Source of the DNA: Schleiferia thermophila | GTDB lineage: Bacteria; Bacteroidota; Bacteroidia; Flavobacteriales; Schleiferiaceae | NCBI RefSeq assembly: GCF_003337435.1 | Contig: NZ_QPJS01000002.1 | Coordinates: forward strand, 186,001 to 250,000 | Direction of reading: 5' to 3' | Length of the DNA stretch: 64,000 nucleotides | Shown here: piece by piece, positions 19,083 to 58,834 of the stretch | Numbering within the stretch: position 1 is the first letter of the stretch | Layout of the letters: every line of letters begins with the position of its first letter | The notes under the pieces: model-generated | The model's input: the letters and a program-made list of their open reading frames with translations, nothing else | Databases searched by the model: none | What the model was told of the DNA's origin: nothing | Program-made: the position numbers and the translations under genes

Positions 19083-19159
19083 TGGTGGGCCCAACAGGGC
19101 TTGAACCTGTGACCCCCTGATTATGAGTCAGGTGCTCTGACCAGCTGAGCTATAGGCCC
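19083..19159 (-). tRNA. tRNA with CAU anticodon (elongator Met, or Ile2)
   Basis: A complete 77-nt cloverleaf including an encoded CCA (19083-19085). The acceptor pairs GGGCCTA with TGGGCCC, the D arm has AGCTCAGCTGGT, the anticodon stem CCTGA/TCAGG encloses CTCATAA with anticodon CAU, and the T arm is ACAGG-TTCAAGC-CCTGT. It is not initiator tRNA, which would begin CGC and carry three G-C pairs in the anticodon stem. The variable and T arms resemble elongator tRNA-Met, but a lysidine-modified tRNA-Ile2 has the same anticodon and cannot be excluded. Confidence 0.93.
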
Positions 19160-20712: not shown

Positions 20713-20794
20713 TGCGGATGGAGGGACTCGAACCCCCACGCCTCACGGCACCAGATCCTAAGTCTGGCGCGGCTACCAATTACGCCACATCCGC
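20713..20794 (-). tRNA. tRNA-Leu (UAG anticodon)
   Basis: An 82-nt class II tRNA. Acceptor GCGGATG pairs with CATCCGC, the anticodon stem CCAGA/TCTGG encloses CTTAGGA with anticodon UAG, there is a long variable arm (TGCCGTGAGGCGTG) typical of leucine tRNAs, and the T arm contains GGTTCGAGTCC. No CCA is encoded: the discriminator A is followed by CAA. Confidence 0.94.
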
Positions 20795-34978: not shown

Positions 34979-35199
34979 TTTTCATTCGTTGTGCGCGAAC
35001 TTTTCGGCTGGTGTGGGTTTGCCCTAGCTCAAAACGGTCCTGAGGTGCAGGATGGCATTGATTGATGGGGTTGGTGGAAAGGAAGGTGTGAAAAGTCGTA
35101 GAACCATGTGTGCTGATGAATGTCTGTACTGTAAATGAAATGCTGGGTATTGGATTTTGAAGCTGGTGATTAGGTTATCGGGTGGCGTCCTGTAACCTG
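34979..35199. other. Non-coding G-rich stretch upstream of interspersed element copy 1
   Basis: No gene, RNA or repeat was recognised here. The base composition is striking: for example 35041-35100 has 26 G and 3 C. It leads into the GC-rich element at 35200. Short open frames exist but have no sensible start or family. Confidence 0.5.
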
Positions 35200-35375
35200 C
35201 GCCAGGGCGGAGGCGGATATGAGCCGTAGCGGGCGGGTTCTGTGGCACACGGGCGAGGAGGCGGAGCGGCAGCAAGCCACCGCAGCCCGATGTGTCACGC
35301 CCGATCCGCAAGGGGAATAGGAGCCGCAGACCGGCCCCCGGCCGCCTGTGTAAAAGCGGCCGGGGGAGGCGCCCA
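35200..35375 (+). repeat. GC-rich structured interspersed element, copy 1
   Basis: A 176-bp element that also occurs at 49705-49876 (inverted) and 54626-54797. The ends are complementary (GCGCC at the start, GGCGC near the end). Inside are nested pairings: GCGGAT 35214-35219 with 35305-35310, CGGGC 35231-35235 with 35300-35304, GTGGCACA 35243-35250 with 35292-35299 (one G-T wobble), and GGGC 35252-35255 with 35286-35289. An 11-base bulge follows the outermost helix. The 3' part is a hairpin of CCCCCGGCCGC with GCGGCCGGGGG around a loop unique to this copy. No transposase, target duplication or T-run is seen. I do not recognise the family; it could be a structured RNA or a non-autonomous mobile repeat. 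Confidence 0.85.
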
Positions 35376-35444
35376 CGTAAAAAAAAATGATGGAGTGGTG
35401 GGGGTTAGAGGAGGTAATTTTGGCCGTTTTTAACCGGGTGACTT

Positions 35445-36356
35445 TTGGCAAATTTTGTTTTAATTGTATTGTGTCTGCTGATAGGGCAGGGACTGAGGAG
35501 GGTGAAGGACTTTCCCAGGGATGGGCACAGGGCATTGAATGCTTTTATCATCTATGTGGCCCTTCCGGCGGTGGCCTTCAGATATGTGCCGGCCATCGAA
35601 TGGTCAGGGGCTGTGGTGTGGCCGTTTGTGGTGCAATTTGTCGGATTTGGGGTGGCGCTTGGTGCGGTGTGGTTGTTTGGAAGGATGAAACCGTTGGATA
35701 CGGCTACACGGGGTGCCATGCTGCTGACGATGGGGCTTTGTAACACGAGTTTTGTGGGATTTCCGCTGGTGGAGACCTGGTATGGGGCCGATGCGATACG
35801 GGTGGCTCTGCTGAGCGATCAGGGGGCTTTTTTTGTGTTGAGCTTGCTTGGGGTGGGTTTCGCGACTTGGTATGCGGAGGGGCATGTGAGTGTGGGCTAT
35901 CTGGTGCGAAGGGTGGTGAGTTTTCCGCCGTTTATTGCTTTTGTGCTGGCGGTTTTGTTACCGGTGAACATTTTGCCAGGCTGGTGGGGGGTTCTGATGG
36001 AAAAGTTGTCGGCTCCGCTGGTGCCTTTGGCGCTGATTTCTGTATCGTTGCAGATTTCATTTGGAGAGCGGTTTGGGCAGTGGGGGGAGCTGTGGTGGTC
36101 GTTGATGGTGAAGCTGGTGGTGGTGCCGGCAGTGGCGCTGGGGATGCTGTGGTGGGTGGCTGACATGCCGGAGGAGTATTTTAAAGTTACGGTTTTTGAA
36201 TCGGCAATGGCGCCAATGGTGACGGCGTATGTAGTGGCTTCACAGTTTAGATTGAATTCGACTTTGGCAGGGTATACAGTAGGTGTGGGGATACTGCTTT
36301 CGCTGCTGAGTACAGCGGGTTGGTACTATCTGCTGGAATGGTGGTGGGAGGGCTAA
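35445..36356 (+). CDS. AEC-family transporter (auxin efflux carrier fold)
   Basis: A 303-residue membrane protein with about ten hydrophobic segments. The N-terminal L-N-A-F-I-I-Y-V-A-L-P-A-V-A-F and the middle G-L-C-N-T-S-F-V-G-F-P-L segment are typical of AEC carriers, which export or import small organic acids or similar solutes. The substrate is unknown. An in-frame stop at 35439 and the family N-terminus indicate a TTG start at 35445. The coding strand is exceptionally G rich (36061-36120 has 32 G and 5 C), which raises valine, glycine and tryptophan content. This may reflect the neighbouring element rather than horizontal transfer. Confidence 0.83.
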   Translation: MANFVLIVLCLLIGQGLRRVKDFPRDGHRALNAFIIYVALPAVAFRYVPAIEWSGAVVWPFVVQFVGFGVALGAVWLFGRMKPLDTATRGAMLLTMGLCNTSFVGFPLVETWYGADAIRVALLSDQGAFFVLSLLGVGFATWYAEGHVSVGYLVRRVVSFPPFIAFVLAVLLPVNILPGWWGVLMEKLSAPLVPLALISVSLQISFGERFGQWGELWWSLMVKLVVVPAVALGMLWWVADMPEEYFKVTVFESAMAPMVTAYVVASQFRLNSTLAGYTVGVGILLSLLSTAGWYYLLEWWWEG

Positions 36357-36470
36357 ATGTGGCTGATGGAAATAATTGCCCGGCAAAAGGAAGAATCGGA
36401 GTATTTTCAACGCCGGATTGCAGGAGCGGAAGCTGTGATTCAATTGTTTAATATTCAATAATTTGTGTTT

Positions 36471-37484
36471 ATGAGTGCAGATAAAGAGGCCAAGCTCAGA
36501 GCGCTTAAGCTCACCCTGGAGAAGATGGACAAGACCTATGGAAAGGGTGCTGTAATGCGTATGGGAGATGCGCCAGTGGAGCAAATGGAAGTAATAAGTA
36601 CAGGCTCCATAGGGCTTGACGTGGCTCTGGGTGTGGGGGGTTACCCGAAAGGGAGAATTGTGGAAATTTTCGGACCGGAGTCATCGGGTAAAACTACTTT
36701 GACACTCCATGCCATAGCAGAGGTGCAAAAGCAGGGTGGTATAGCGGCCTTTATCGATGCCGAGCATGCATTTGACAGATTTTATGCCGAAAAACTGGGA
36801 GTGAATACCGATGATTTAATCATATCTCAGCCTGACAATGGGGAACAAGCACTGGAAATCGCAGATAACTTAATCAGATCCGGAGCTATCGACTTGATTG
36901 TAATTGACTCTGTGGCTGCCCTGACGCCAAAAAGCGAGATAGAGGGCGAAATGGGGGATTCCAAAGTAGGTCTGCAGGCCCGGCTGATGTCGCAGGCATT
37001 GAGAAAGCTGACGGCCACCATCAGCAAAACGAATTGCTGCTGTATTTTCATCAACCAACTCAGGGAGAAAATCGGGGTTATGTTTGGTAATCCGGAAACT
37101 ACTACCGGTGGTAATGCATTGAAATTTTATGCTTCAGTGAGGATAGACATCCGAAGAAGTACACAAATCAAAGAGGGCGAACAGGTGACTGGCAACCGCG
37201 TGAAAGTAAAAGTGGTAAAAAACAAGGTGGCTCCGCCCTTTCGCTCGGCAGAATTTGATATAATGTACGGGGAAGGAATTTCCAAAGTCGGAGAAATCAT
37301 TGATATGGGAACTGACTTTGGAATCATCAAAAAAAGCGGAAGCTGGTATAGCTACGGCGACACGAGGCTGGCTCAGGGACGCGATGCAGTAAAAATGTTG
37401 CTGATGGACAATCCGGAACTGCTGGAAGAACTAGAAACCAAAGTGCGCGAAAAACTCAAGCAGGCTCAGGAAAACAGCAAATAA
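36471..37484 (+). CDS. recA: Recombinase RecA
   Basis: The strand-exchange and SOS co-protease protein, 337 residues. Walker A reads [10 protein letters not shown], Walker [13 protein letters not shown], then the [19 protein letters not shown] loop 1 region and [20 protein letters not shown] loop 2. The ATG at 36471 is preferred over a GTG two codons earlier. Unlike the AEC gene before it, base use is nearly balanced (36961-37020 has 19 G and 17 C). I see no recognisable LexA box in the short upstream gap. Confidence 0.97.
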
Positions 37485-45365: not shown

Positions 45366-47699
45366 TTGAATACCGAAAACCTCTTAAAGGAACTCAACGA
45401 TGTGCAGCGCGAAGCCGTATTGCACACAGAAGGCCCGGTCATGATCATTGCAGGTGCAGGCTCGGGAAAAACCCGTGTCCTTACCTATCGCATTGCATGG
45501 CTTATGCTACAGGGCACCGACCCTTTCAATATCCTGGCCCTAACCTTTACCAACAAAGCCGCCCGGGAAATGAAAGAGCGCATTGCAGCGGTCGTAGGAC
45601 ATTCCGAGGCCAAAAATCTCTGGATGGGCACTTTTCACTCCATCTTTGCCCGATTGCTACGCATCGATGGACATATGCTCGGCTATCCGTCCAACTTTAC
45701 CATCTACGACACCGATGACTCCGAAAAACTCATCACCCAAATCGTAAAAGAAAAAAACCTCGACAAAGACCTCTATAAACCCAAAAAAATCCTCAACCGA
45801 ATCTCTTCCCTGAAAAACAACCTAATCATACCACAGTATTACGACAACTTTCCTGAGCTTAGAGAATACGACGAAGCAGCAAAAATTCCCGACTTTAAAA
45901 ACATTTACACCGCCTATGTGGAGCGTTGTTTCAAAGCAGGTGCTATGGATTTCGACGACATCCTGCTCAAAACCAACGAGCTGCTCGGCACATTTCCGGA
46001 AATTCTGGCCAAGTATCAGGACCGCTTCCGCTATATCCTCGTAGACGAGTATCAAGACACCAACCACAGCCAATACATCATCATCAAGGCACTGGCCAAT
46101 AAATTTGAAAACATCTGCGTGGTAGGCGACGACGCCCAGTCCATCTACGCCTTCCGGGGAGCCAACATTCGCAATATCCTCAGCTTCCAAAAAGACTATC
46201 CCGACTGCCAAATCTTCAAACTCGAACAAAACTACCGCTCTACCCAACACATCGTAAATGCAGCAAATTCCGTAATAGCCAACAACCGCGACCAGCTGAA
46301 GAAAAATGTATGGACTTCCAATGAGACCGGCGAAAAAATTACCATCTACAAAGCCCTTAACGAAACCGAAGAAGCCCACTACATCGCAGAGCGCATCATG
46401 GAGCGCCATCTGACCTACCAGATGCCTTACAGCGATTTTGCGATTCTCTATCGCACCAATGCACAAAGCCGCGCATTGGAAGAGCAACTCCGTCGCAAAA
46501 ACATTCCCTATCGCATCTACGGCGGAATGAGTTTCTACCAACGCAAAGAAGTAAAAGACTTACTCGCCTATCTGCGCCTGGCCGTAAATCCGCACGACGA
46601 AGAAGCCCTACGTCGTGTAATTAACTATCCTGCCCGCGGCATCGGGCAGACCACTGTAGAGCGCCTTACCATCCTGGCCGACCAACACAACACCACCCTC
46701 TGGGACATCTGCCGGAATGCCATCAATTTCAAAAATGAACTGGGAACCGCCCCGGCCCAAAAAGTCAGTGACTTTGCAACTATGATCACCGAGTTTGGCG
46801 TTCGTGCCCGAAGAGAAAGCGCATGGGATGCAGCGGAGCACATCTTCAAAGCATCCGGCATCCTAAGAGCACTCAACGACGACAAAACCGAAGAAGGCAT
46901 CTCACGCCTTGGAAATGTCCAGGAATTGCTCAACAACATAAAATCCTTCACCGATACCCAACTCAGCCTCGAAGAAAACAACGACATCTCGCTCGACTAC
47001 TTTCTTCAGGACATCGCCCTGCTTACATCTACCGACCAGCAAGACGACGGTGAGCCCAACAAAGTCTCCCTCATGACACTCCATCTGGCCAAAGGCCTCG
47101 AATTTCCCGTCGTCTTCATTTCCGGAATGGAAGAAGAACTCTTCCCCTCATCCCAGATGGTCAATACCCGTGCTGACCTCGAAGAAGAACGCCGTCTCTT
47201 CTACGTCGGCATGACCCGCGCCAAAAAAAAGCTCTTTCTCACATTCACCCACATGCGCATGCGCTACGGCAAAACCAACGATTGCGAGCCCAGCCGATTT
47301 CTTGATGAAATCGACGACCAATACACCGAACTCATTCTGCCTGCCTTCCACCGTAGCCAGCCAACCTTCCTCTCAGGGCCGGCATGGGGTGCCGGGCCCG
47401 CCAACAACCACTCATCCGGCCCTTTTGCCCCCATCGGCACCTCCAGACAAAAAACGCCTCACCTCGCCACCCGCCCTTCCAGCACAGCATCCAATGCTCT
47501 CCCACCTGAAAAACCCCAAGGCGAAATCCTGACCCACACCGTACCCGGAGACCGGGTCTTTCACGAAAAATTCGGATATGGCAACGTATTGGAAGTCGAA
47601 GGCTCTGGCGTCAATGTCAAAGCTACAGTAGCCTTTGACCAGGCCGGCCAGAAAAAATTACTCCTCCAATATGCCAAACTCATCAAAGTAAAACCCTGA
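45366..47699 (+). CDS. pcrA: UvrD/PcrA-type superfamily 1 DNA helicase
   Basis: A 777-residue 3'-5' helicase acting in repair and in clearing proteins from DNA. Motifs seen: L-N-D-V-Q-R-E-A-V (Q motif), Walker A A-G-A-G-S-G-K-T-R-V, motif Ia T-F-T-N-K-A-A, motif II V-D-E-Y-Q-D-T-N, motif III G-D-D-A-Q-S-I-Y-A-F-R-G-A, motif IV L-E-Q-N-Y-R-S-T, motif V T-L-H-L-A-K-G-L-E-F and motif VI V-G-M-T-R-A-K-K. The C-terminal tail resembles the PcrA/UvrD Tudor-like end (D-R-V-F-H-E-K-F-G-Y-G). The start is TTG at 45366, which is the only sensible one. The second half is very C rich on the coding strand (47401-47460 has 28 C and 7 G). Confidence 0.93.
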   Translation: MNTENLLKELNDVQREAVLHTEGPVMIIAGAGSGKTRVLTYRIAWLMLQGTDPFNILALTFTNKAAREMKERIAAVVGHSEAKNLWMGTFHSIFARLLRIDGHMLGYPSNFTIYDTDDSEKLITQIVKEKNLDKDLYKPKKILNRISSLKNNLIIPQYYDNFPELREYDEAAKIPDFKNIYTAYVERCFKAGAMDFDDILLKTNELLGTFPEILAKYQDRFRYILVDEYQDTNHSQYIIIKALANKFENICVVGDDAQSIYAFRGANIRNILSFQKDYPDCQIFKLEQNYRSTQHIVNAANSVIANNRDQLKKNVWTSNETGEKITIYKALNETEEAHYIAERIMERHLTYQMPYSDFAILYRTNAQSRALEEQLRRKNIPYRIYGGMSFYQRKEVKDLLAYLRLAVNPHDEEALRRVINYPARGIGQTTVERLTILADQHNTTLWDICRNAINFKNELGTAPAQKVSDFATMITEFGVRARRESAWDAAEHIFKASGILRALNDDKTEEGISRLGNVQELLNNIKSFTDTQLSLEENNDISLDYFLQDIALLTSTDQQDDGEPNKVSLMTLHLAKGLEFPVVFISGMEEELFPSSQMVNTRADLEEERRLFYVGMTRAKKKLFLTFTHMRMRYGKTNDCEPSRFLDEIDDQYTELILPAFHRSQPTFLSGPAWGAGPANNHSSGPFAPIGTSRQKTPHLATRPSSTASNALPPEKPQGEILTHTVPGDRVFHEKFGYGNVLEVEGSGVNVKATVAFDQAGQKKLLLQYAKLIKVKP

Positions 47700-47711
47700 A
47701 CCACACCAACC

Positions 47712-48374
47712 ATGTCAGATACAAAAAGTCTTACCTACAACACCAGTAAAGATCCACTCCGCATTCCAGAATACGGCCGTGTCGTCCATGAAATGATACG
47801 CCATACCCTAAGCCTCCCCGATCGCGAGCAGCGCAGCAAAGCAGCCAGAGCCATTATCGAAGTCATTGGAAATCTCAACCCACAGCTTCGCGACCAACCC
47901 GATTTCCGCCATAAACTCTGGGACCACCTTTTTATAATGTCCGATTTTCAGCTCGATGTTGACGCACCCTACCCCATACCCACCCGCGAACAGCTCACCG
48001 AACCTCCACGACGCCTTCAATACCCCCAAAAAACTCACAGACACCGCTACTACGGCTCCATCATCCGCCAGATGATCAAAAAAGCCTCCGATATGCCCGA
48101 GGGAGAAGAAAAAATTCAATACATCCGCCTGATTGCCAATCAAATGAAGAAAACCTATCTTCAGTGGAATAAAGACACCGTCGAAGACCAAGTCATCATC
48201 GACGACCTCGTCGAACTCTCAAACGGAAAACTCCAAATCTCCGACCTCACCCTTACTTCCAGCTCCACACTTAAAAAACTCACAACCCCGACCAATCAAT
48301 CAGGCAAAAAGAAAAACGGATACAAAAAAAACCAAAAAGCCTACGGTAAGCACAAGAAAAACTTTAAAAAATAA
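47712..48374 (+). CDS. DUF4290 family protein
   Basis: A 220-residue protein of a family confined, as far as I know, to Bacteroidota. Characteristic stretches are I-P-E-Y-G-R-V-V-H-E-M-I, A-R-A-I-I-E-V-I-G-N-L-N-P-Q-L-R-D and K-L-W-D-H-L-F-I-M-S-D-F-Q-L-D-V-D-A-P-Y-P. The last 40 residues are lysine rich and probably disordered. Its function is unknown, but it is directly followed by murA 3 bp later, an association that I recall from other members of the phylum and that hints at a cell-envelope role. Confidence 0.83.
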   Translation: MSDTKSLTYNTSKDPLRIPEYGRVVHEMIRHTLSLPDREQRSKAARAIIEVIGNLNPQLRDQPDFRHKLWDHLFIMSDFQLDVDAPYPIPTREQLTEPPRRLQYPQKTHRHRYYGSIIRQMIKKASDMPEGEEKIQYIRLIANQMKKTYLQWNKDTVEDQVIIDDLVELSNGKLQISDLTLTSSSTLKKLTTPTNQSGKKKNGYKKNQKAYGKHKKNFKK

Positions 48375-48377
48375 TCC

Positions 48378-49688
48378 ATGAGCCAGTTTAAAATACGCGG
48401 AGGCAAGCCTCTGAAAGGCGACATCGTGCCGCAAGGAGCCAAAAACGAAGCCCTTCAGGTCATCTGCGCTACCCTGCTCACCCCCGAGCCCGTCACCATC
48501 AGCAATCTGCCCGATATAGTTGACGTACGCAAACTCATCGATCTGCTTGCCGCCCTAGGGGTCAAAATCACCCCACACTCCCCAAACGAATATACCTTTC
48601 AGGCCGATACCATCGACATCGACTACCTGTATACCGACGACTTTCGCCGGCGAGGTGCAGCTTTGCGCGGCTCTGTCATGATCGTGGGCCCACTGCTCGC
48701 CCGCTTCGGAAAAGGGTACATCCCCAAGCCCGGAGGCGACAAAATAGGACGCCGGCGACTCGACACCCACTTCGATGGGTTCATAAAACTCGGAGCCCGC
48801 CTACGCGGCAATCCCGGCGAAAACTTCTACGGAGTAGAAACCCACAGCCCATTACAAGGCACCTATATGCTCCTCGAGGAGGCCTCCGTCACAGGCACAG
48901 CCAATATCCTCATGGCCGCCGTGCTCGCCCGAGGCACCACCACTATCTACCATGCCGCCTGCGAACCCTACATCCAGCAGCTCTGCCGAATGCTCAACTC
49001 CATGGGCGCCCGCATTACCGGCATAGGCTCCAATCTCCTAACCATCGAAGGAGTCACCTCCCTCCACGGCACCACCCATCGCTGTCTGCCCGATATGATT
49101 GAAGTTGGCTCATTCATCGGCTTAGCAGCCATCACCGGGAGCGACATTACCATCCGAAATGCAGGCGTCCCATATCTGGGCCAGATCCCTTCCGTCTTCC
49201 GAAAACTTGGCATCACCCTACACATCATCGGCGACGACATCCACATACCCCCACACGATCACTACGAAATCGACACCTTCATGGACGGCTCCATCATGAC
49301 CATCTCCGATGCCCCATGGCCAGGCTTCACACCCGACCTGCTCTCCATCGTACTCGTCACAGCCACTCAGGCACGCGGCAGCGTACTCATCCACCAGAAA
49401 ATGTTCGAATCCAGGCTTTTCTTCGTCGATAAGCTCATCGATATGGGCGCACAGATCATTCTCTGCGACCCCCACCGCGCCACCGTCATAGGCCTCGACC
49501 GCCGTCAGCCACTACGCCCCGCTACTATGAGCTCACCCGACATCCGCGCTGGTGTGTCCCTACTCATCGCAGCCCTCAGTGCCGATGGCACTTCCATCAT
49601 CCAAAACATCGAACAAATCGACCGCGGATACCAAAACATCGAGCATCGGCTTCGGCTGTTGGGAGCCGACATCGAGCGAATCCCCTGA
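48378..49688 (+). CDS. murA: UDP-N-acetylglucosamine 1-carboxyvinyltransferase with Asp at the fosfomycin-target position
   Basis: MurA transfers enolpyruvate from PEP to UDP-GlcNAc, the first committed step of peptidoglycan synthesis. The 436-residue protein has P-Q-G-A-K-N-E-A-L near the N-terminus and the active-site loop G-Y-I-P-K-P-G-G-D-K-I-G. In E. coli this loop has Cys115, which fosfomycin alkylates; here the equivalent residue is Asp121. The same Cys-to-Asp change is known to give intrinsic fosfomycin resistance in Mycobacterium and Chlamydia. The coding strand is strongly C rich, especially towards the 3' end. An interspersed element begins 17 bp after the stop. Confidence 0.94.
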   Translation: MSQFKIRGGKPLKGDIVPQGAKNEALQVICATLLTPEPVTISNLPDIVDVRKLIDLLAALGVKITPHSPNEYTFQADTIDIDYLYTDDFRRRGAALRGSVMIVGPLLARFGKGYIPKPGGDKIGRRRLDTHFDGFIKLGARLRGNPGENFYGVETHSPLQGTYMLLEEASVTGTANILMAAVLARGTTTIYHAACEPYIQQLCRMLNSMGARITGIGSNLLTIEGVTSLHGTTHRCLPDMIEVGSFIGLAAITGSDITIRNAGVPYLGQIPSVFRKLGITLHIIGDDIHIPPHDHYEIDTFMDGSIMTISDAPWPGFTPDLLSIVLVTATQARGSVLIHQKMFESRLFFVDKLIDMGAQIILCDPHRATVIGLDRRQPLRPATMSSPDIRAGVSLLIAALSADGTSIIQNIEQIDRGYQNIEHRLRLLGADIERIP

Positions 49689-49704
49689 TTCAAAATTGTA
49701 CATT

Positions 49705-49876
49705 GGGCGCCTCCCCCGGCCATCCAGGGGAGGCCGGGGGCCGGTCTACGGCTCCTATTCCCCTTGCAGACCGGGCGTAGACCATCGGGCTGCGGTGGCT
49801 CGCTGCCGCTCCGCCTCCTCGCCCGTGGGCTACTTTGCCCGCCTGCTGCGGCTCATATCCGCCTCCGCCCTGGCGC
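49705..49876 (-). repeat. GC-rich structured interspersed element, copy 2 (inverted)
   Basis: A 172-bp copy of the element at 35200-35375, on the opposite strand. Read on the minus strand it begins at 49876. One helix pairs GTAGCCCA (49833-49826) with TGGTCTAC (49784-49777). Compared with copy 1, G-C has become A-T at the third pair, A-T has become C-G at the sixth, and the fifth pair is mismatched, so pairing has been largely kept through double changes. The 3' hairpin keeps the CCCCCGGCC/GGCCGGGGG stem, but its loop sequence is wholly different. The other strand is open in one frame, but the differences between copies fall mostly on first and second codon positions, which argues against a protein. 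Confidence 0.83.
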
Positions 49877-50401
49877 GGAACTCACACTGGTAGACATCTA
49901 CACTTGAAGTACTTCAGGCTTCCATACCAAAGTCTCACACATCACAACCTCCAGCCAACCGCAATCCATTTGCTCCGCTTCCCGCAATCAAGCATTTACT
50001 ACCAATACGGCTACGTAATAGCGCATTTATCATTTTTCAACAAAACCTGTTAAGCAACTTCCAACTGTGCCAAAGTGGGAGATACTCCCGCAAAAAATTC
50101 CCGTAAGTACGCGACAGTCCGATGCATACCGTGTAATGGGAATTTTGCCACAGCCTGAACCACCCCCCACACTTCCGCAAGTACACGACTGTACCAATCC
50201 ATCCCTCTGCCTCTACTCAGCAACTGTATCCTCAAAGGACTATAAAGAACTTCCCTGCATCCGGCCAGTATTCACCATATTTGGACAAGGCTATTGTCAA
50301 TAGGCCATATGGATGAGCAGATCAATATCCGGTTTCCACCGTCATCCGCATGAAATCCCTCCCATGTACCAACCGGATATGTAGGCTGTGCAACTTATCA
50401 C
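49877..50401. other. Non-coding C-rich region after element copy 2, with short imperfect repeats
   Basis: No convincing gene is present. The + strand is C rich (49921-49980 has 25 C and 5 G). A 9-bp inverted repeat AAAATTCCC/GGGAATTTT lies at 50094-50102 and 50138-50146. CCGTAAGTACGCGAC (50101-50115) recurs as CCGCAAGTACACGAC (50175-50189). Two short frames (50067-50303 + and 50050-50235 -) lack any recognisable domain. The stretch may be a decayed insertion or plain spacer. Confidence 0.5.
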
Positions 50402-51232
50402 TTATTCCTTGAGCTGCTTACCACAATGAGGGCATGTGGTGCTTGCTTCCTTCGAATCCTTTTCTGTGTCCTCTTGTGCAATTTTCTGTAACTCCGTGCT
50501 GAATCCACCTGCCAAAATACCAGCCGGTAAGGCAAAAAGACCAATTCCCATGAGAGCGATAATTCCCCCCAGAAATTTTCCAACCGGAGTTATGGGATGC
50601 ATATCTCCATAACCCACCGTGGTCAGGGTGATAATGCCCCACCACATCGTTTCCGGTATGCTGCGAAAAACTTCCGGCTGGGCTTTGTTTTCTACATAAA
50701 ACATCAGAAAAGAAACAAATATCAGCATGATGATAATGAAAAACAAGGCAAACATCAGCTCCTGAAACTTTGCTCTGAAAACTCGACCCAGCAGTTGAAG
50801 AGCCGTAAAATACCTGAAAAGCTTAAAAATCCGAAACAGCCTGAAGACCATCAGATAGTAATAATTTAGCCCAAACATGAAGTTGAGATAGAAAGGCAAA
50901 ATGGCCAGCAAATCCACGATCCCATAAAAACTCAGCACAAAGCCCACTCTAGGTCTTTTAAATCTGGAATACACTTCTGTGACAGGAGCTATCCAGATTC
51001 TAAGCACGTATTCGATAGTGAAAAACAATACAGTAAATACCTCAAGCAGATAAAAATTCTGTCGGTAGTAAAGCGGAATATCCGGTACTGAATCGATGAT
51101 GAGTACCGTGAGGTTTACAATGATAATAAGGGTGATAAATACATCTATGGCTTTTGCCCATCCAGATTCAGCAGTTCCAGGTTCGAGCAGATAGGCACAT
51201 CGCTCTTTTAGTTTTTGATATGTTTTCCTCAT
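50402..51232 (-). CDS. Voltage-gated-type potassium channel (6-TM ion transporter)
   Basis: A 276-residue channel with six transmembrane segments and a pore loop. The selectivity filter T-T-V-G-Y-G-D occupies residues 204-210, and an S4-like helix carries spaced basic residues (Arg131, Arg134, Lys137, Arg140), as in KvAP-type channels. It probably conducts K+ in a voltage-dependent way as a tetramer. The cytoplasmic tail ends with C-P-H-C-G-K, half of a zinc-ribbon-like motif. It stands alone between the non-coding region after copy 2 and the S9 peptidase, and is divergent from the latter. Confidence 0.88.
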   Translation of the reverse strand: MRKTYQKLKERCAYLLEPGTAESGWAKAIDVFITLIIIVNLTVLIIDSVPDIPLYYRQNFYLLEVFTVLFFTIEYVLRIWIAPVTEVYSRFKRPRVGFVLSFYGIVDLLAILPFYLNFMFGLNYYYLMVFRLFRIFKLFRYFTALQLLGRVFRAKFQELMFALFFIIIMLIFVSFLMFYVENKAQPEVFRSIPETMWWGIITLTTVGYGDMHPITPVGKFLGGIIALMGIGLFALPAGILAGGFSTELQKIAQEDTEKDSKEASTTCPHCGKQLKE

Positions 51233-51513: not shown

Positions 51514-54312
51514 ATGAAAGAGTACTCATTCGCACGGGTAAAATATGCAGTTGTATGTGTATGTGTGAGTTTTTCGGCTATTGGCCAGATGGGGCAAAGC
51601 TTTGATCCAGACATAATTGAAAAATTTCATCACCTGAGAGATGAAAAAGTCAGCCGCGATTCCAAATGGATGGCCTGGAAAGTTGGGCCGGTAGAGGGCG
51701 ATGGCTATATGATGCTTCTCAACAACGATGGCGGAGATACTATCCGACTCGACCGGTGTATTCAAGTGCATTTTAATTACCTGTCTGATTACGCCCTCGC
51801 TATCGTAAGTCCGCCTTTTGAAGAGGTTCGAAATGCCAAGCTTGCTAAAAAACCAAAAGATAAATGGCCAAAAAACATCCTGATTCGGATATCTGCTAGT
51901 TTTCAGATTGATACTGTAGGTGAGGTGGAGAGGCTTTACTTCCCCGAAAAGTCGACGGAAGTAGTCTACTTTACAGCTCCTTCCCGGCCGAAACAGACCG
52001 TAAAAGATAGCACTGAAGCCGATACAGCAGCATCAAAGCCATCCAAAATCACGACTCCTAAAGAAAAGCCTCTGTATCGACTTAATATAAAGACGGGTGA
52101 CACGCTGTTTCTGGCATATCCTACGGATGTAGGGGTCTCTGCCGATGGCATGTGGCTTTTGTATGCCTCGAAAAATCCAGAAACATCGTCCGAAAAAAAA
52201 ATTCTCAGACTGTTTAAATCGTCTGACGCGACTCACCAGGTGCTCGATACACTTTCATTTGAATTCAGAAAGTTGCTTGTCTCGGATCATGGTACATACA
52301 TTTCATGGTTGGCACAGTCGGATAGTGCTGCTGATCCGCCGATATGGAAGTGGACGCTGGCATGCAATGCCAGGGGAAAGCAAGTCCAGATTCAGATTAC
52401 GGATACGCTTGCTTTGAACGGATACTTTAATGCCGATGGCGATTGGATGTTTTCGGAGTCGGAAAACAGGCTGTACCTGACAATGCATACAGGCAGACCA
52501 GGGAAACAAAACCCTGATTCAACAAAGCTTGAAGATGAAAGGCCTGAATTCGATCTCTACACGCACGCAGACTACCATCTGATGTCATGGCAGCTGGCAA
52601 ATCTCGGTCAGTTGCGCAGCAAGGGACTCAAAGCGGTCTATCACACCGGAAAAAATAAACTGGTGATGATAACTTCGGATATCGAAGAATACGCTTACAT
52701 CGATACAAAAAAGGATGACCCCTATATACTGGTGCGATTGGATGAAGGTCTGAAGGAGGGAAGGAATTGGGAATTTCCCAATGAGTTTTCTTATCAATTG
52801 GTGCATACAGATGATGGGAGGAGAATACCGGTGGTCAGAAAAGTTCGCTCAGGTGCAGTCCTATCGCCTGGCGGGCAGTTTGTCACCTGGTTTGATCCAG
52901 AGGAGCGGGTTTGGAAGTGTTTTAGGGTAAGAGATCAATCAGTGGTGATGTTGGGTGCAGATGTGGCTACAGAATGGCACCAGGCCAGCCATGATCTTCC
53001 GTCACCTCCTCCTGCCTTTGGGTTGGCAGGGTTCACTGCTGGTGATCGCCGGGTGTGGATATACGACCGGCATCATATCTATGCTTGTGATCCAAATGGC
53101 AGAGCAAAAAGCGTAAAAGTCAGTCATTTTTCGGACCAGGACCATGAGGTTCGTTATCGCGGGATTTATCAGAGAGAGAATTTTATAGGTCAGGTCAGTG
53201 GGTCGGCTTTGCTTGTGCAAAAAAATCTCCACTCTCTTGAAGAAAAGCTGGTGTTGGTGAGTCTTCGCAAGGGCAATGTCCTAAATAGCCGTGCGCTCAA
53301 CAAATCGCTGCTGCGTATACTGGGGGGTGAGTTTGGACAATGGTTTCTGCTACGGGAAGAGAGTTATCTGCAGTATCCTGAAATACAAACGGCAGATTCG
53401 GAATTGGAGCGTTTTCGCCAATGGTCGGATCTTGGCCTTCAGTACGATGGATTCAGGCGGGGTCAGGTTTTCAAATTTCCATATGAGGTGCGGCTTTCCA
53501 ACGATTCGTTGGTAGCGCTCGAGGGGCTGGTATACCTGGATACGACTGCAGCAGAAAAACAGCCGGGCATTGTTTACTTCTACGAGCGCAATGCCGAGAA
53601 TATGCATCGCCACTATTCACCGCGCTTTAGCAGGAGTATTATCAATCCGCTGGTGTATGTTTCGCATGGATATGCGGTGATCATACCGGATATTGTATAT
53701 ACGACGGGCAATCCGGGGCAGGATGCTTTGAAGTGTGTGACGGCCGCAGTGGATTCAGCACTCAGGTTGTTTGACCGCATCGACGGGTCACGGCTTGGGG
53801 TCAACGGACAAAGCTGGGGGGGCTATCAGGTGGCCTATATCATCACGCAGACAAACCGGTACAAGTCCGCCTTTGCCGGTGCTCCGGTGGCCAATATGAC
53901 GAGCGCATACGGCGGCATCCGATGGGGTACCGGGCATAGCCGCATCTCCCAATACGAGCAGGGGCAGAGCCGGATAGGCGCTGCTCTGTGGGACAATCCG
54001 CAGGCCTACATCCAAAACAGTCCTCTCTTTCACCTGCCCGGTGTTGAGACTCCACTGCTGATCATGCACAACGACCGCGATGGTGCGGTACCTTATTATC
54101 AGGGGATAGAACTCTTCATGGGACTGAACCGACTCAAAAAGCCTGTGTGGATGCTGGTGTACAACAAGGAAGACCACAATCTGACACAGCTTAAGAATAT
54201 GCGCGATTTGACGGGTAAGGTGCTGGATTTTTACAATCATTTTCTCAAAGGTGAGCCAATGCCTGAGTGGATGAAGGGAATACCGGCTACACGGAAGGGT
54301 TTGGACTTTTAG
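51514..54312 (+). CDS. S9-family serine peptidase (prolyl oligopeptidase-like), exported
   Basis: A 932-residue protein with an N-terminal hydrophobic signal (about residues 8-25), a long beta-rich region that may form the propeller, and a C-terminal alpha/beta-hydrolase peptidase domain. The catalytic triad is readable: Ser767 in G-Q-S-W-G-G, Asp856 in H-N-D-R-D-G-A-V-P and His888 in K-E-D-H-N-L. These enzymes cut peptides, often after proline or alanine, in the periplasm or outside the cell. It resembles the large S9C-type peptidases of Bacteroidota. Base use becomes increasingly G rich towards the 3' end, near element copy 3. Confidence 0.88.
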   Translation: MKEYSFARVKYAVVCVCVSFSAIGQMGQSFDPDIIEKFHHLRDEKVSRDSKWMAWKVGPVEGDGYMMLLNNDGGDTIRLDRCIQVHFNYLSDYALAIVSPPFEEVRNAKLAKKPKDKWPKNILIRISASFQIDTVGEVERLYFPEKSTEVVYFTAPSRPKQTVKDSTEADTAASKPSKITTPKEKPLYRLNIKTGDTLFLAYPTDVGVSADGMWLLYASKNPETSSEKKILRLFKSSDATHQVLDTLSFEFRKLLVSDHGTYISWLAQSDSAADPPIWKWTLACNARGKQVQIQITDTLALNGYFNADGDWMFSESENRLYLTMHTGRPGKQNPDSTKLEDERPEFDLYTHADYHLMSWQLANLGQLRSKGLKAVYHTGKNKLVMITSDIEEYAYIDTKKDDPYILVRLDEGLKEGRNWEFPNEFSYQLVHTDDGRRIPVVRKVRSGAVLSPGGQFVTWFDPEERVWKCFRVRDQSVVMLGADVATEWHQASHDLPSPPPAFGLAGFTAGDRRVWIYDRHHIYACDPNGRAKSVKVSHFSDQDHEVRYRGIYQRENFIGQVSGSALLVQKNLHSLEEKLVLVSLRKGNVLNSRALNKSLLRILGGEFGQWFLLREESYLQYPEIQTADSELERFRQWSDLGLQYDGFRRGQVFKFPYEVRLSNDSLVALEGLVYLDTTAAEKQPGIVYFYERNAENMHRHYSPRFSRSIINPLVYVSHGYAVIIPDIVYTTGNPGQDALKCVTAAVDSALRLFDRIDGSRLGVNGQSWGGYQVAYIITQTNRYKSAFAGAPVANMTSAYGGIRWGTGHSRISQYEQGQSRIGAALWDNPQAYIQNSPLFHLPGVETPLLIMHNDRDGAVPYYQGIELFMGLNRLKKPVWMLVYNKEDHNLTQLKNMRDLTGKVLDFYNHFLKGEPMPEWMKGIPATRKGLDF

Positions 54313-54625
54313 TTTCCGGGAAATTTAGGGAGGGTCGTACTGTATGCATGCCTGAGGTTGTGAAGTAGGGCATGCAATGGAAGTTAGGGGAGTTTTTGAT
54401 GGTGAATTGTCGGATTGATAGTGTGTATGATGTTGGATGGTGATGTTCAGACTTAGGTTTTTTGTCAGGTAATTGGAGGGGGGGGTAGTGGTTTATTGGG
54501 AGGTCAGAGGTTTAAAAATGGAGGCTTTTGAACGCGTAATGTTTATGGGTAAACTAGTTTGGATGGTGGTATTTGGTGAGTGGGGTTGTAAAGTCCACAC
54601 AGTGTAGGGGCATGATGTGTTTGAT
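54313..54625. other. Non-coding G/T-rich stretch before element copy 3
   Basis: No gene or RNA recognised. The + strand is nearly devoid of C (54421-54480 has 22 G and 3 C) and contains a run of nine G at 54478-54486. It joins the S9 peptidase gene to the interspersed element at 54626. Confidence 0.5.
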
Positions 54626-54797
54626 GCGCCAGGGCGGAGGCGGATATGAGCTGCAGCGGGCGGGCGGTGTGGATCACGGGCGAGGAGGCGGAGCGGTAGC
54701 GAGCCACCGCAGCCCGATGTGCCACGCCCGATCCGCAAAGGGAATAGGAGCCGCAGACCGGCCCCCGGCCGCTCACAGGCGGCCGGGGGAGGCGCCC
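54626..54797 (+). repeat. GC-rich structured interspersed element, copy 3
   Basis: A 172-bp copy in the same orientation as copy 1. GCGCC at the start pairs with GGCGC near the end. The outer helix GCGGAT/ATCCGC and the CGGGC/GCCCG helix are identical to copy 1. The inner helix GTGGATCA (54669-54676) with TGTGCCAC (54718-54725) has two internal mismatches here. The 3' hairpin CCCCCGGCCGC/GCGGCCGGGGG encloses TCACAG. It sits between the S9 peptidase and the end of secA, 24 bases from the secA stop codon, so it could be in the 3' region of the secA message, where it would be read as antisense. Confidence 0.84.
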
Positions 54798-54820
54798 TAT
54801 GGAGAAATTTTTATTGGATT

Positions 54821-57800
54821 TTAATCTATGATGACCCAGTTGCCGGTTTGAAGGAGGGGTTGGGCTTGTTTGTATTTGAGGTTTTTGCGTTCGCCGGTGG
54901 TGAGGTTTTGGATGGTGATATGGTCGTTGCGTCCGTATTTTTTGTCGCTGATGATGGGGCGACGTGTGGGCGGTGAGTCGGGCAATGATGAGGAGGCTGG
55001 TCCTGAGGTGGTTAGGACCTCGCTGCGGTTTTTGATATGGCGTGCCGGGGCAGGGGCGGTGACTTGTTCGGCGTTTTGGACGGGGATGAACGCGTGCATG
55101 AGAAAGGATACCAGCTCGCGGTTGAGTTTTTCCTTCATCTTTTTGAAGAGCTCGAAAGATTCGAATTTGTAGATGAGGAGAGGGTCTTTTTGTTCGTATA
55201 TTGCTCCTTGTACGGCCTGTCGGAGGTCGTCCATGTCGCGGAGGTGGTCTTTCCAGGCTTCGTCGATCAGGGTGAGGGTGACGGATTTTTCGAAATCGCG
55301 GATGATGGATTGGCAGCGTGTTTCGTAGGCTTTTTGGAGGTTGGCGGCTATTTGGATGCCTTTATGTCCGTCGGTGAAGGGGATGAGGATGTTTTGATAG
55401 TGGGTGCCGTGGGTTTCGAATACATTTTTGATGGCGGGCCAGGCTTTTTCGGCCAGGATTTGTGATTTTTTGGTGTAGTGGTCAGTGACGGTGTGGTAGA
55501 GTTGATCGATGAGTTTGTTGGTGTCGATGCGTTCGAATTCTTCCTGGCTGAACGGGGAGTCGATGCCGAAGTAGCGGGCCAGTTCGACGCGGAAACCTTC
55601 GAAGTCTTTGGTGTCTTTAAAGAGTTCTACGGCGGAGGCACAGGTTTGAAAGATTGCGTCGGCCAGGTCGATGGCGAGTTTTTCGCCGTAGAGGGCGTTT
55701 CGGCGCCAGCGGTAGATGACTTCGCGTTGTTTGTTCATGACATCGTCGTACTCGAGCAGGCGTTTGCGAATGCCGAAGTTGTTTTCTTCTACTTTTCGCT
55801 GTGCGCGTTCGATGGATTTGGTGACCATTGAGTGCTGGATGACTTCGCCTTCTTTGTGCCCGAGGCGGTCCATGATGGAGGCGATGCGTTCGGAGCCGAA
55901 GAGCCGCATGAGGTTGTCCTCGAGGGACACGAAGAACTGGGAGGATCCCGGGTCGCCCTGGCGGCCGGCGCGTCCGCGCAGCTGGCGATCGACGCGACGG
56001 GAGTCGTGACGTTCGGTGCCTATGATGGCCAATCCTCCAGCAGCTCGGCTTTCGGGGGTGAGTTTGATGTCGGTACCGCGGCCTGCCATGTTGGTGGCGA
56101 TGGTGACGGTGCCCGGGCGGCCGGCTTCGGCTACGATTTCGGCTTCGCGCTGGTGGAGTTTGGCGTTGAGGACATTGTGCTTGATTTTGCGCAGGGTGAG
56201 TGCGCGACTGAGGAGTTCGGAATTTTCGACACTGGTGGTACCAACGAGCACAGGCCTGTTTTGCTGTACGAGGTTTATGATTTCTTCGATGACGGCATTG
56301 AATTTTTCTCGTTTGGTCTTATAGACGAGGTCTTCTTTGTCCTGGCGAATTACGGGTTTGTTGGTGGGAATTACGACGACGTCGAGTTTGTAGATGTCCC
56401 AGAATTCGGCGGCTTCGGTTTCGGCGGTACCGGTCATACCGGCCAGCTTGTGGTACATGCGGAAGTAATTCTGGAGGGTGATGGTGGCATAGGTCTGTGT
56501 GGAGGCTTCTATTTTGACGCCTTCTTTGGCTTCGATGGCTTGGTGGAGTCCGTCGGAGTATCGGCGGCCTTCCATGATACGGCCTGTTTGCTCGTCTACG
56601 ATTTTGACTTTGTTGTCCATCACTACGTATTCTACATCACGTTCGAACATGGTGTAGGCTCTGACGAGCTGATTCATTATGTGGATGCGCTCACTGCGGA
56701 GGGCAAAGTCGCGCATGAGTTGTTCTTTTTGCTTGATTTTTTCCTCTGGGGTGGTGTTTTGTTTTTCGATTTCGGCTACAGCTGCACCTATGTCGGGCAG
56801 GATAAAGAAATCGGGCGAGGTGTCGCGCGAAAGGAATTCAATGCCTTTTTCGGTGAGGTCTATCTGGTTGTTTTTTTCTTCGATGGTGAAGAGGAGTGCG
56901 GCATCGACTTTGGGCATTTCCTTGCCTTGCTCCTGGAGATAGTAGTTTTCGGTTTTTTGCAGGATGGTTTTGATGCCTTCTTCGCTGAGGTATTTGATGA
57001 GGGGCTTAAACTTCGGGAGGCCTCGATGGGCGCGCAGCAGGTGAAATCCGCCGTCTTTGGTATTGCCGGCTGCAATGAGTTTTTTAGCTTCGTTGAGTTC
57101 TGTGGTTACGATTTTTCGTTGTTCTTCGACCAGGCGTGCGACGTAGGGTTTGAGTTCTTCGAAGTCTTTCAGGTTATTTTTTCCGGTAGGTCCTGAGATG
57201 ATGAGGGGTGTACGTGCATCGTCGATGAGTACGGAGTCTACCTCGTCTACTATGGCGTAGTGGTGTTTTCTTTGGACGATTTCGTCGATGCTTCGTGCCA
57301 TGTTGTCGCGGAGGTAGTCAAAGCCGAATTCGGAGTTGGTACCGAAAGTAATATCACATTGATAGGCTGCTCTTCGTTCTGGGGAGTTGGGTTGGGTTTT
57401 ATCGATGCAGCCTACGGAAAGTCCGTGGAATTCATAGATCGGGCCCATCCAGTCGGCGTCGCGTTTGGCGAGGTAGTCGTTTACGGTGACCAGATGTACG
57501 CCTTTACCTGCAAGTGCATTGAGATAGACGGGTAGGGTAGCTACGAGAGTTTTCCCTTCGCCGGTGGCCATTTCGGCAATTTTTCCTTTGTGTAAGGCTA
57601 CACCACCGATCAACTGTACGTCGTAGTGCACCATGTCCCACCGTACGGGGTGGCCGGCAACCAACCAGGTGGATGACCAGCGGGCTTTGTCGCCGAGGAT
57701 TTGTACATTGGATTTTCTGGCCGATAGGGCTCTGTCAAATTCTGTGGCTGTGACTTCGATGTATTCATTTTCTTTGAATCGCCTGGCCGTCTCTCTAACC

Positions 57801-58138
57801 ACAGCAAAGGCTTCTGGAAGGAGGTCTATCAGCACTTTTTCGATGATTTCTAATTCTTGCTTTTCGAGTTTTTCGATTTCGGAATAGAGTTTTTCTTTCA
57901 GGTCTACATCGTCAGATTGGTCGGCCTGTAGTTTCTTTTGTTCGATTTGAGAGGTAATGTTGGCTGTGGCTGAGGCTATTTTTTCTTTGAAGCCTGTTGT
58001 TTTGTCTCTCAGTTCATCATCGGAAAGACTTTGGAGTGTTGGGTATATTTCATTTATTCTCTTTACAAAGGGGTGAATTTCTTCCAGATCCTTTTGGTTT
58101 TTGCTGCCAAAGAGTTTTGTGAGAAGTTTATTTATCAT
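54821..58138 (-). CDS. secA: Protein translocase ATPase SecA
   Basis: SecA drives preproteins through SecYEG. The 1105-residue protein is long, as in other Bacteroidota, because of insertions. Walker A reads [11 protein letters not shown], Walker B region [21 protein letters not shown], followed later by [10 protein letters not shown] and [16 protein letters not shown]. The C-terminus ends in a short basic segment and lacks the usual C-x-C-x8-C-H zinc motif, so SecB binding in the E. coli way is not expected. The ATG at 58138 begins [12 protein letters not shown]. The + strand through the gene is G rich. Confidence 0.96.
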
Positions 58139-58237
58139 TTTTCTGATGAATCATTAGTGTGAAAGATACAAATATCTGAGTGATTTTTGGAACGAATTAG
58201 TAAAGTTAGGTGAAAATCAATAGGTACATTAATTTGG

Positions 58238-58834
58238 TCATCGTCGGGTCTTTTTTAAAGGGAAGTAATCGGTGGGGTGTTCCGGTCTGTTGGGTTCTGG
58301 CTCGAGGAGAGGTTCAACTTCTAAGCAGGTTTCGTGCATTTGCCGAGGGAGTTTCATATACAGTTCGGTTCCTTGAGTTTTCCAGGCAATCATTTCGTCG
58401 GTGAGTTTTTTAATGACCTGGGCCGGATTTCCAACGGCCAAACTTCTGGATGGGATGGTCATGCCTTGTGGCACAAACGACATGGCGCCGATGATACTGT
58501 CGTCTCCTATTTCTACTTCATCCATTACTACCGTATTCATGCCGATCAGTACATTTCGTCCGATTTGGGCACCATGTATCATGGCCCCATGGCCGATATG
58601 GGCCATTTCTTCCAAAATTACAGTTACGCCTGGAAACATATGAATTACACAATTTTCCTGCACATTGCAGCCGTCTTTGATGATTATGCGACCCCAATCA
58701 CCTCTGATGCGTGCGCCGGGGCCTATATATACATCGCGGCCGATGAAAACGTCTCCAATAACAGTGGCCTGTGGATGCACATAGGCGGTAGGATGAACTA
58801 CGGGTATAAACCTGTCAAAACTATATATAGCCAT
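58238..58834 (-). CDS. Left-handed beta-helix (hexapeptide) protein, PaaY/gamma-carbonic-anhydrase-like
   Basis: A 198-residue protein made of hexapeptide repeats (I-G-D-V-F-I, I-G-P-G-A-R, I-R-G-D-W-G, V-I-H-M-F-P and so on) forming a left-handed beta-helix. Family members are trimeric gamma-carbonic anhydrases or CaiE/PaaY-type proteins. Histidines that could bind metal are seen in V-I-H-M-F, I-G-H-G-A and M-I-H-G, in the right pattern for the three-histidine site. The C-terminal 60 residues are acidic and proline rich, as in PaaY. It lies 5 bp from the next minus-strand gene and may share its transcript. Confidence 0.83.
   Translation of the reverse strand: MAIYSFDRFIPVVHPTAYVHPQATVIGDVFIGRDVYIGPGARIRGDWGRIIIKDGCNVQENCVIHMFPGVTVILEEMAHIGHGAMIHGAQIGRNVLIGMNTVVMDEVEIGDDSIIGAMSFVPQGMTIPSRSLAVGNPAQVIKKLTDEMIAWKTQGTELYMKLPRQMHETCLEVEPLLEPEPNRPEHPTDYFPLKKTRR

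Follow-up and report, generated by a model that had tools for sequence, protein, structure and literature searches.

When Flavo-1 (RF01705) was first listed as a candidate RNA, no function could be assigned to it (Weinberg et al. 2010, PMC2864571). The copies in F. psychrophilum show no preference for the sense or the antisense orientation relative to transcripts, and many of them are untranscribed (PMC9723704). Rfam classes Flavo-1 as an sRNA, and its 76-nt model spans only the arm, with neither a terminal stem nor a 3′ hairpin. REP and BIME repeats, together with RAYT (Y1) transposases, are dispersed intergenic folded repeats that act on one strand; we know of no kilobase mutation gradient associated with them. 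Primosome assembly and single-strand initiation sites are strand-specific hairpins in single-stranded DNA that load a helicase one way, and Chi exerts a polar, kilobase-scale effect on one side that decays with distance. In vertebrate mitochondrial DNA, strand asymmetry is set by the time spent single stranded, and the exposed strand gains A-to-G changes (PMC3269012).

The window studied here, a stretch of 64,000 nucleotides of the Schleiferia thermophila genome, carries three copies of a folded element that resembles each of these systems in part. Copy 1 (L010, 176 bp) lies at 35199..35374 on the + strand, copy 2 (L019, 172 bp) at 49705..49876 on the − strand, and copy 3 (L001, 172 bp) at 54626..54797 on the + strand, with the secA stop codon 23 bp away. 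These positions confirm a preliminary description of the same DNA, apart from the start of copy 1, which had been placed one base off. That description also predicted many copies genome-wide, and a search of the whole 2.6-Mb genome returned 25 full copies with conserved structure (172 to 176 bp; median pairwise identity, 88%) and one partial copy that adjoins a scaffold gap. The gap, at L179 7918-8014 (G000 C1:140417-140513), has a full copy on one side and a partial copy on the other, and their 3′ flanks are identical; this may be an assembly artefact or a tandem duplication. The window also contains two tRNA genes on the minus strand (19086-19159 and 20713-20794).

The element folds more stably than shuffled sequences (MFE, −100.1 kcal/mol; z, −4.2). 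On the + strand of copy 1, a terminal stem pairs GCGCC at 35199..35203 with positions 35368-35372 and encloses two structures: a long arm with internal loops (35212..35325), which holds the bulk of the covarying pairs (helices 2-8 of the covariation analysis), and the GC-rich 3′ hairpin with a variable loop at 35335..35366, already recognized in the preliminary description and recovered as helix 9. The GCGCC/GGCGC complementarity noted there is likewise a real stem, with the correction that its 3′ half is followed by a CC overhang (GGCGCCC, 35368..35374, from sequence and covariation). The outer stem is supported by compensatory changes: copy L025 has GCGCA/TGCGC, and the sister genus has GCGTG/CACGC. 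Among the aligned copies, 14 pairs were changed on both sides versus 4.6 expected from shuffles (0/500 shuffles), and paired cells reached 98.7%, compared with about 40% when the partner was slid by 1 to 3 columns. Imperfect pairs on the + strand comprised 17 G-U and 1 A-C, which indicates selection on the fold of the + strand alone, as RNA or as single-stranded DNA; the covariation could equally reflect RNA. The element had been reported to have no T-runs. Within the element, none follows its hairpins on either strand, and an intrinsic terminator was rejected on this ground, but the A-rich 3′ flank provides T-runs on the opposite strand.

An Rfam search found no match for the element in the window or the S. 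thermophila genome, and the earlier statement that it belongs to no recognised family is to that extent formally correct. Homology, however, leads to Flavo-1. The covariance model R1, derived from the 25 copies, gave 22 matches (best E, 5e-15) in Thermaurantimonas aggregans, which NCBI places with Schleiferia in the Schleiferiaceae, Flavobacteriales; 27 copies in total were found in the part of that genome sampled. The T. aggregans copies start with GCGTGAGGGATAG and finish with AGCGGATAGCCCGACCC-hairpin-CACGCCCAAA. A search for the 3′ core in 296 Bacteroidota genomes recovered loci that bear the 5′ core too, many of which cmscan calls Flavo-1 (RF01705). The series GCGTGAGGGATAG..AGCGGATAGCCCGACCC..CACGCCCAAA recurs phylum-wide in Flavo-1-scored loci, and through such intermediates the core motif and rod fold are common to the element and Flavo-1. 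This chain of homology through T. aggregans places the element, GC-rich and diverged, within a wider Flavo-1 superfamily. It is a remote relative of Flavo-1; neither the S. thermophila copies, those of the window included, nor the T. aggregans copies reach the RF01705 gathering score (42 bits), so it is not filed under that family. The preliminary description had taken a database match as the result that would overturn its reading, and the outcome falls halfway, with Rfam missing the element and the homology chain arriving at Flavo-1.

Features in common with Flavo-1 are a rod-like fold whose internal loops are symmetric, the presence of numerous intergenic copies in Bacteroidota, the core GATWGnAGCGG ... 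AGCGGAWAGC (present in T. aggregans and phylum-wide relatives), and a polar asymmetry of the same sign, reported below. The window copies differ from Flavo-1 in their greater length, GC-richness, and rebuilt core, and they carry a terminal stem and a 3′ hairpin not covered by the 76-nt Rfam model. The stem that reads GGG..CCC in the Schleiferiaceae type reads CCC..GGG in canonical Flavo-1 loci (L212-L231), apparently through a compensatory exchange that separates the subtypes. In T. aggregans, copies L071, L073, L088, and L090 carry about 30 to 80 nt of extra sequence within the long arm, and in L089 (C2:5330) the 3′ hairpin unit is amplified into a tandem array of ~40- to 50-bp units. Searches for the element in phage and plasmid collections found none, and searches for the core sequences in published papers returned nothing relevant.

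The copies lie within a polar strand asymmetry. On the element + strand, G is in excess, mainly against A, from about 0.3 to 1 kb upstream to 3 to 5 kb downstream, and this footprint was seen at 25/25 S. thermophila copies and 25/26 T. aggregans copies. Averaged over the 25 S. thermophila copies, + strand GC skew is about 0.30 from −500 to +1000. On the 3′ side it is positive in the first bin of all 25 copies and drops near-linearly to zero at about 5.5 to 6 kb; on the 5′ side it has the same sign but is weaker and is mostly gone within about 1 kb. T. aggregans shows the same shape, with a peak of 0.22 that is gone by 3.5 kb (16/16 positive). The signal is strongest at third codon positions, where the index G/(G+A)-C/(C+T) is 0.42 at 0 to 1 kb (25/25 positive) and 0.00 at 5 to 8 kb in S. 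thermophila and falls from 0.21 (25/26 positive) to 0.00 at 4 to 5 kb in T. aggregans.

The sign of the skew tracks the orientation of the element, not that of the genes. In the window, + strand GC skew is 0.33 to 0.41 in the domain of copy 1 (35000..36500, +), and the gene downstream of that copy (35685-36356, same strand) has a third-codon G/(G+A) of 0.83. The minus copy at 49705 flips the surrounding skew, to as low as −0.34 on the + strand, in a domain (45500..50900, −) that includes an EPSP-synthase-family gene (MurA/AroA type; 48378..49688, +). The domain of copy 3 (54000..58300, +) contains secA (54821..58138, −), identified by its SecA domains. On the element strand, G/(G+A) declines even within single genes; in secA, third-codon values run 0.90, 0.90, 0.88, 0.85, 0.83, 0.75, and 0.63 over 3.3 kb. 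The interpretation in the preliminary description is partly supported: of its readings, a chromosomal landmark comes closest, in that each copy anchors a polar, kilobase-scale strand asymmetry.

G at four-fold sites climbs from 0.295 to 0.58 as A drops from 0.25 to 0.12, with the C/T ratio constant. This points to an equilibrium shift that is mainly A to G on the + strand, together with some rise of purines relative to pyrimidines. Because substitutions at silent sites have reached saturation between the two genera, site-by-site comparison gives no direct reading of direction, and the A-to-G change is deduced from equilibrium composition. As a cause, C-to-T deamination on the + strand was rejected because C/T there is constant while G/A shifts.

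Several controls indicate that the footprint depends on the element. Gene-level tests covered about 1.5 Mb of T. aggregans and 0.41 Mb of S. thermophila, with simple ORFs as gene calls. At 869 T. aggregans gene stops without an element, read antisense, the mean was −0.002 (sd, 0.073), whereas the 26 T. aggregans copies gave 0.165 against a null maximum of 0.057 in 20,000 resamples. For 23 genes in S. thermophila domains whose T. aggregans orthologs lie away from any copy, element-strand skew3 was 0.36 near the element and 0.11 without it (p = 1e-4). Of the 19 pairs sharing 54% identity or more, 16 were higher with the element, and all three exceptions came from the weak copy L021. The reverse test (element in T. 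aggregans only) comprised one usable pair. Copy 2 has an orthologous T. aggregans copy in the same orientation (G001 C24:37575-37758), and copies at orthologous places (window 49705; C5:142477) have skew in both genomes; one gene pair is flanked by the element on one side in S. thermophila and on the other in T. aggregans, and the skew differs accordingly. An apparently recent duplicate, C1:140222, has skew in its first 500 bp only, as would be expected if skew needs time to build, a weak point since this copy lies beside an assembly gap. Codon usage of highly expressed genes was rejected as the source because the sign tracks the element and orthologs differ, and reverse transcription of neighbour mRNA was rejected because same-strand neighbours are also affected.

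A weaker footprint of the same sign was found elsewhere in the phylum. At 20 Flavo-1 loci from three genomes (18 in genus g21, which we take to be Flavobacterium, and 2 in g40), the third-codon index was 0.124 ± 0.021 at 0 to 1 kb, 0.063 at 1 to 2 kb, about 0 at 4 to 8 kb, and 0.06 at −1 to 0 kb, with both gene orientations contributing. At 36 Flavo-1 loci from many genomes it was 0.052 ± 0.019 at 0 to 1 kb. The effect in the genomes sampled outside S. thermophila and T. aggregans is therefore weak (0.05 to 0.12). In Flavobacterium-type genomes it is clear only in the third-codon index, which removes gene-orientation effects, and whole-region GC skew is weak or null. Four copies in a second genome of the sister genus (G019) are mostly positive. 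Schleiferiaceae are known for thermophiles, and that the effect is strongest in such a family may or may not be meaningful. The literature searched, with incomplete coverage, held no earlier report of such a gradient.

Any explanation must yield one-sided polarity, a reach of several kilobases, and G gain on the + strand. From the fold, its strand, the footprint, and its dependence on the element, we infer a DNA transaction. Our preferred reading, held at about even confidence, is that the element acts as strand-specifically folded DNA, with DNA synthesis or strand opening proceeding from it in one direction, 3′-ward, and leaving A-to-G errors behind. The + strand would be exposed and fold, and a one-way transaction would begin in the 3′ direction; new + strand would be made on the − strand template while the old + strand is displaced, up to about 3 to 5 kb. 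G misinserted opposite T and escaping mismatch repair would then appear as A-to-G on the + strand, as would, alternatively, adenine deamination in the displaced strand. In mismatch-repair-defective E. coli, A·T-to-G·C changes are twice as likely when T templates the leading strand (PMC8510543), and the sign of the footprint fits synthesis on the − strand as leading template. The transaction could begin when the replicative helicase is loaded onto the folded strand, in the manner of a primosome assembly site, with a strand-specific nick followed by displacement, or through one-sided resection with refilling, including a one-sided, Chi-like break. As part of the same joint explanation, we give similarly balanced credence to the element being folded DNA, dispersed in the genome, that belongs to the extended Flavo-1 superfamily and is active on a single strand.

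Among the described systems, a single-strand initiation or primosome assembly site would give the polarity and sign of the footprint, and the element has the strand-specific fold of such sites. Known primosome assembly sites come from phages and plasmids and are not dispersed chromosomal families; the element is a candidate by its fold and mutation footprint. The one-sided, kilobase-scale decay is like that of Chi, which is an unstructured signal of 5 to 8 nt recognised in duplex DNA by AddAB/RecBCD, whereas the element is a conserved covarying fold of about 110 to 180 nt. The resemblance to vertebrate mitochondrial DNA lies in A-to-G asymmetry on an exposed strand; the organelle, however, replicates its whole molecule asymmetrically from fixed origins, and the element marks many local kilobase domains.

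An R-loop would predict the same sign and polarity. If the + strand were transcribed, with the RNA starting at or passing through the element, and this G-rich RNA hybridised to the − strand, the displaced, non-template + strand would mutate over kilobases; the base content of the element (42% G and 7% T on the + strand) and the covariation suit this account, which we nevertheless consider unlikely. The canonical Bacteroidota −7 box TAnnTTTG was found within 150 bp upstream of 1/52 copies in two genomes versus 23 to 28% of genes, a scan of the canonical box that leaves room for non-canonical promoters. The same count qualifies the structured RNA suggested in the preliminary description, which the covariation supports. 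Moreover, possible read-through from the left gene makes no difference to the effect, either orientation of the right gene shows it, coding strands of ordinary genes have no G excess, and F. psychrophilum Flavo-1 copies are sense and antisense indistinctly and often untranscribed (PMC9723704).

An ordinary REP/MITE-like mobile repeat that inserts preferentially into already skewed regions would make the asymmetry no product of the element. Consistent with mobility, the copies are dispersed and mostly at different places in the two genera, and they prefer A-rich 3′ flanks beside the stop codons of convergent genes: A occupies each of the first two 3′ positions in 21/25 S. thermophila copies, and T directly precedes 19/25. 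Yet orthologous genes without a copy are unskewed, and the skew falls with distance inside genes and changes when the element is on the other side. The 25 copies are intergenic and structured with no transposon ends and no consistent target duplication, as first described, and of the features of a MITE (terminal inverted repeats plus target-site duplication) they have a short outer stem only. At 172 to 176 nt and starting with GCGCC, the element is also several times longer than a REP palindrome (20 to 40 nt) and lacks the GTAG/GGAG foot. No Y1/RAYT (PF01797) match was found in G191, G308, G324, or G244, in each of which 15 Flavo-1 matches were scored, and dependence on RAYT was rejected for lack of co-occurrence. 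We therefore regard a mobile repeat as improbable, and the REP/MITE-like reading offered initially was not supported. The RAYT look-up suggested with it did find a single Y1-transposase gene in S. thermophila, but the palindromes bordering that gene (CAACGATTAAAATCGTTG; L092 1300-1340 and 1960-2030) are unlike the element and are probably the gene's own REP-like repeats. Beside this sole Y1-transposase gene lies a short-form relative, GAGTATGAGCGGATAGCCCGGTCCCG..GCGCCC followed by A-rich sequence (L092 2030-2105; G000 C1, about 431150-431220); its neighbour at L092 2113-3192, a PhoH-like gene on visual inspection, shows the most extreme of all third-codon G/(G+A) values, 0.94.

A conserved noncoding RNA, acting in trans or as a 3′-UTR structure, was the original proposal for Flavo-1. 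Covariation and the Rfam class favor it, as does the convergent gene on the 3′ side of 23/25 S. thermophila copies, whose stop codon mostly lies 9 to 65 bp off. It is nonetheless very improbable for the element, in that canonical promoters are lacking, the folded strand is antisense to the adjacent gene in most copies, copies turn over between genera, and the kilobase gradient would be left unexplained. Just 5′ of many T. aggregans copies (e.g., L067, L070, L072), a hairpin plus T-run reads away from the element, and these elements lie between a gene stop codon and the apparent terminator. Long hairpins are known break sites, but a double-strand break at the hairpin, if resected on both sides and then repaired, would predict opposite signs on the two sides, and with the 5′ side weaker and of the same sign we give this explanation scarcely any credence.

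Returning to a folded DNA element acting on one strand, we tentatively propose, at slightly less than even confidence, that Flavo-1-type elements may be a new class of chromosomal folded-DNA sites that repeatedly launch one-way error-prone synthesis or strand exposure. They would thereby make polar mutation-gradient domains of 1 to 5 kb and, across Bacteroidota, alter the codon usage of genes as essential as secA. Flavo-1, a widespread motif, has lacked a known function for over ten years, and the footprint is the first concrete lead; it suggests that Flavo-1 acts as DNA rather than RNA, a question that genetically tractable Flavobacterium opens to direct test. Were this confirmed, repeats dispersed in bacterial chromosomes would be local sources of mutation bias, and the reading of GC skew, codon usage, and recombination near repeats would change.
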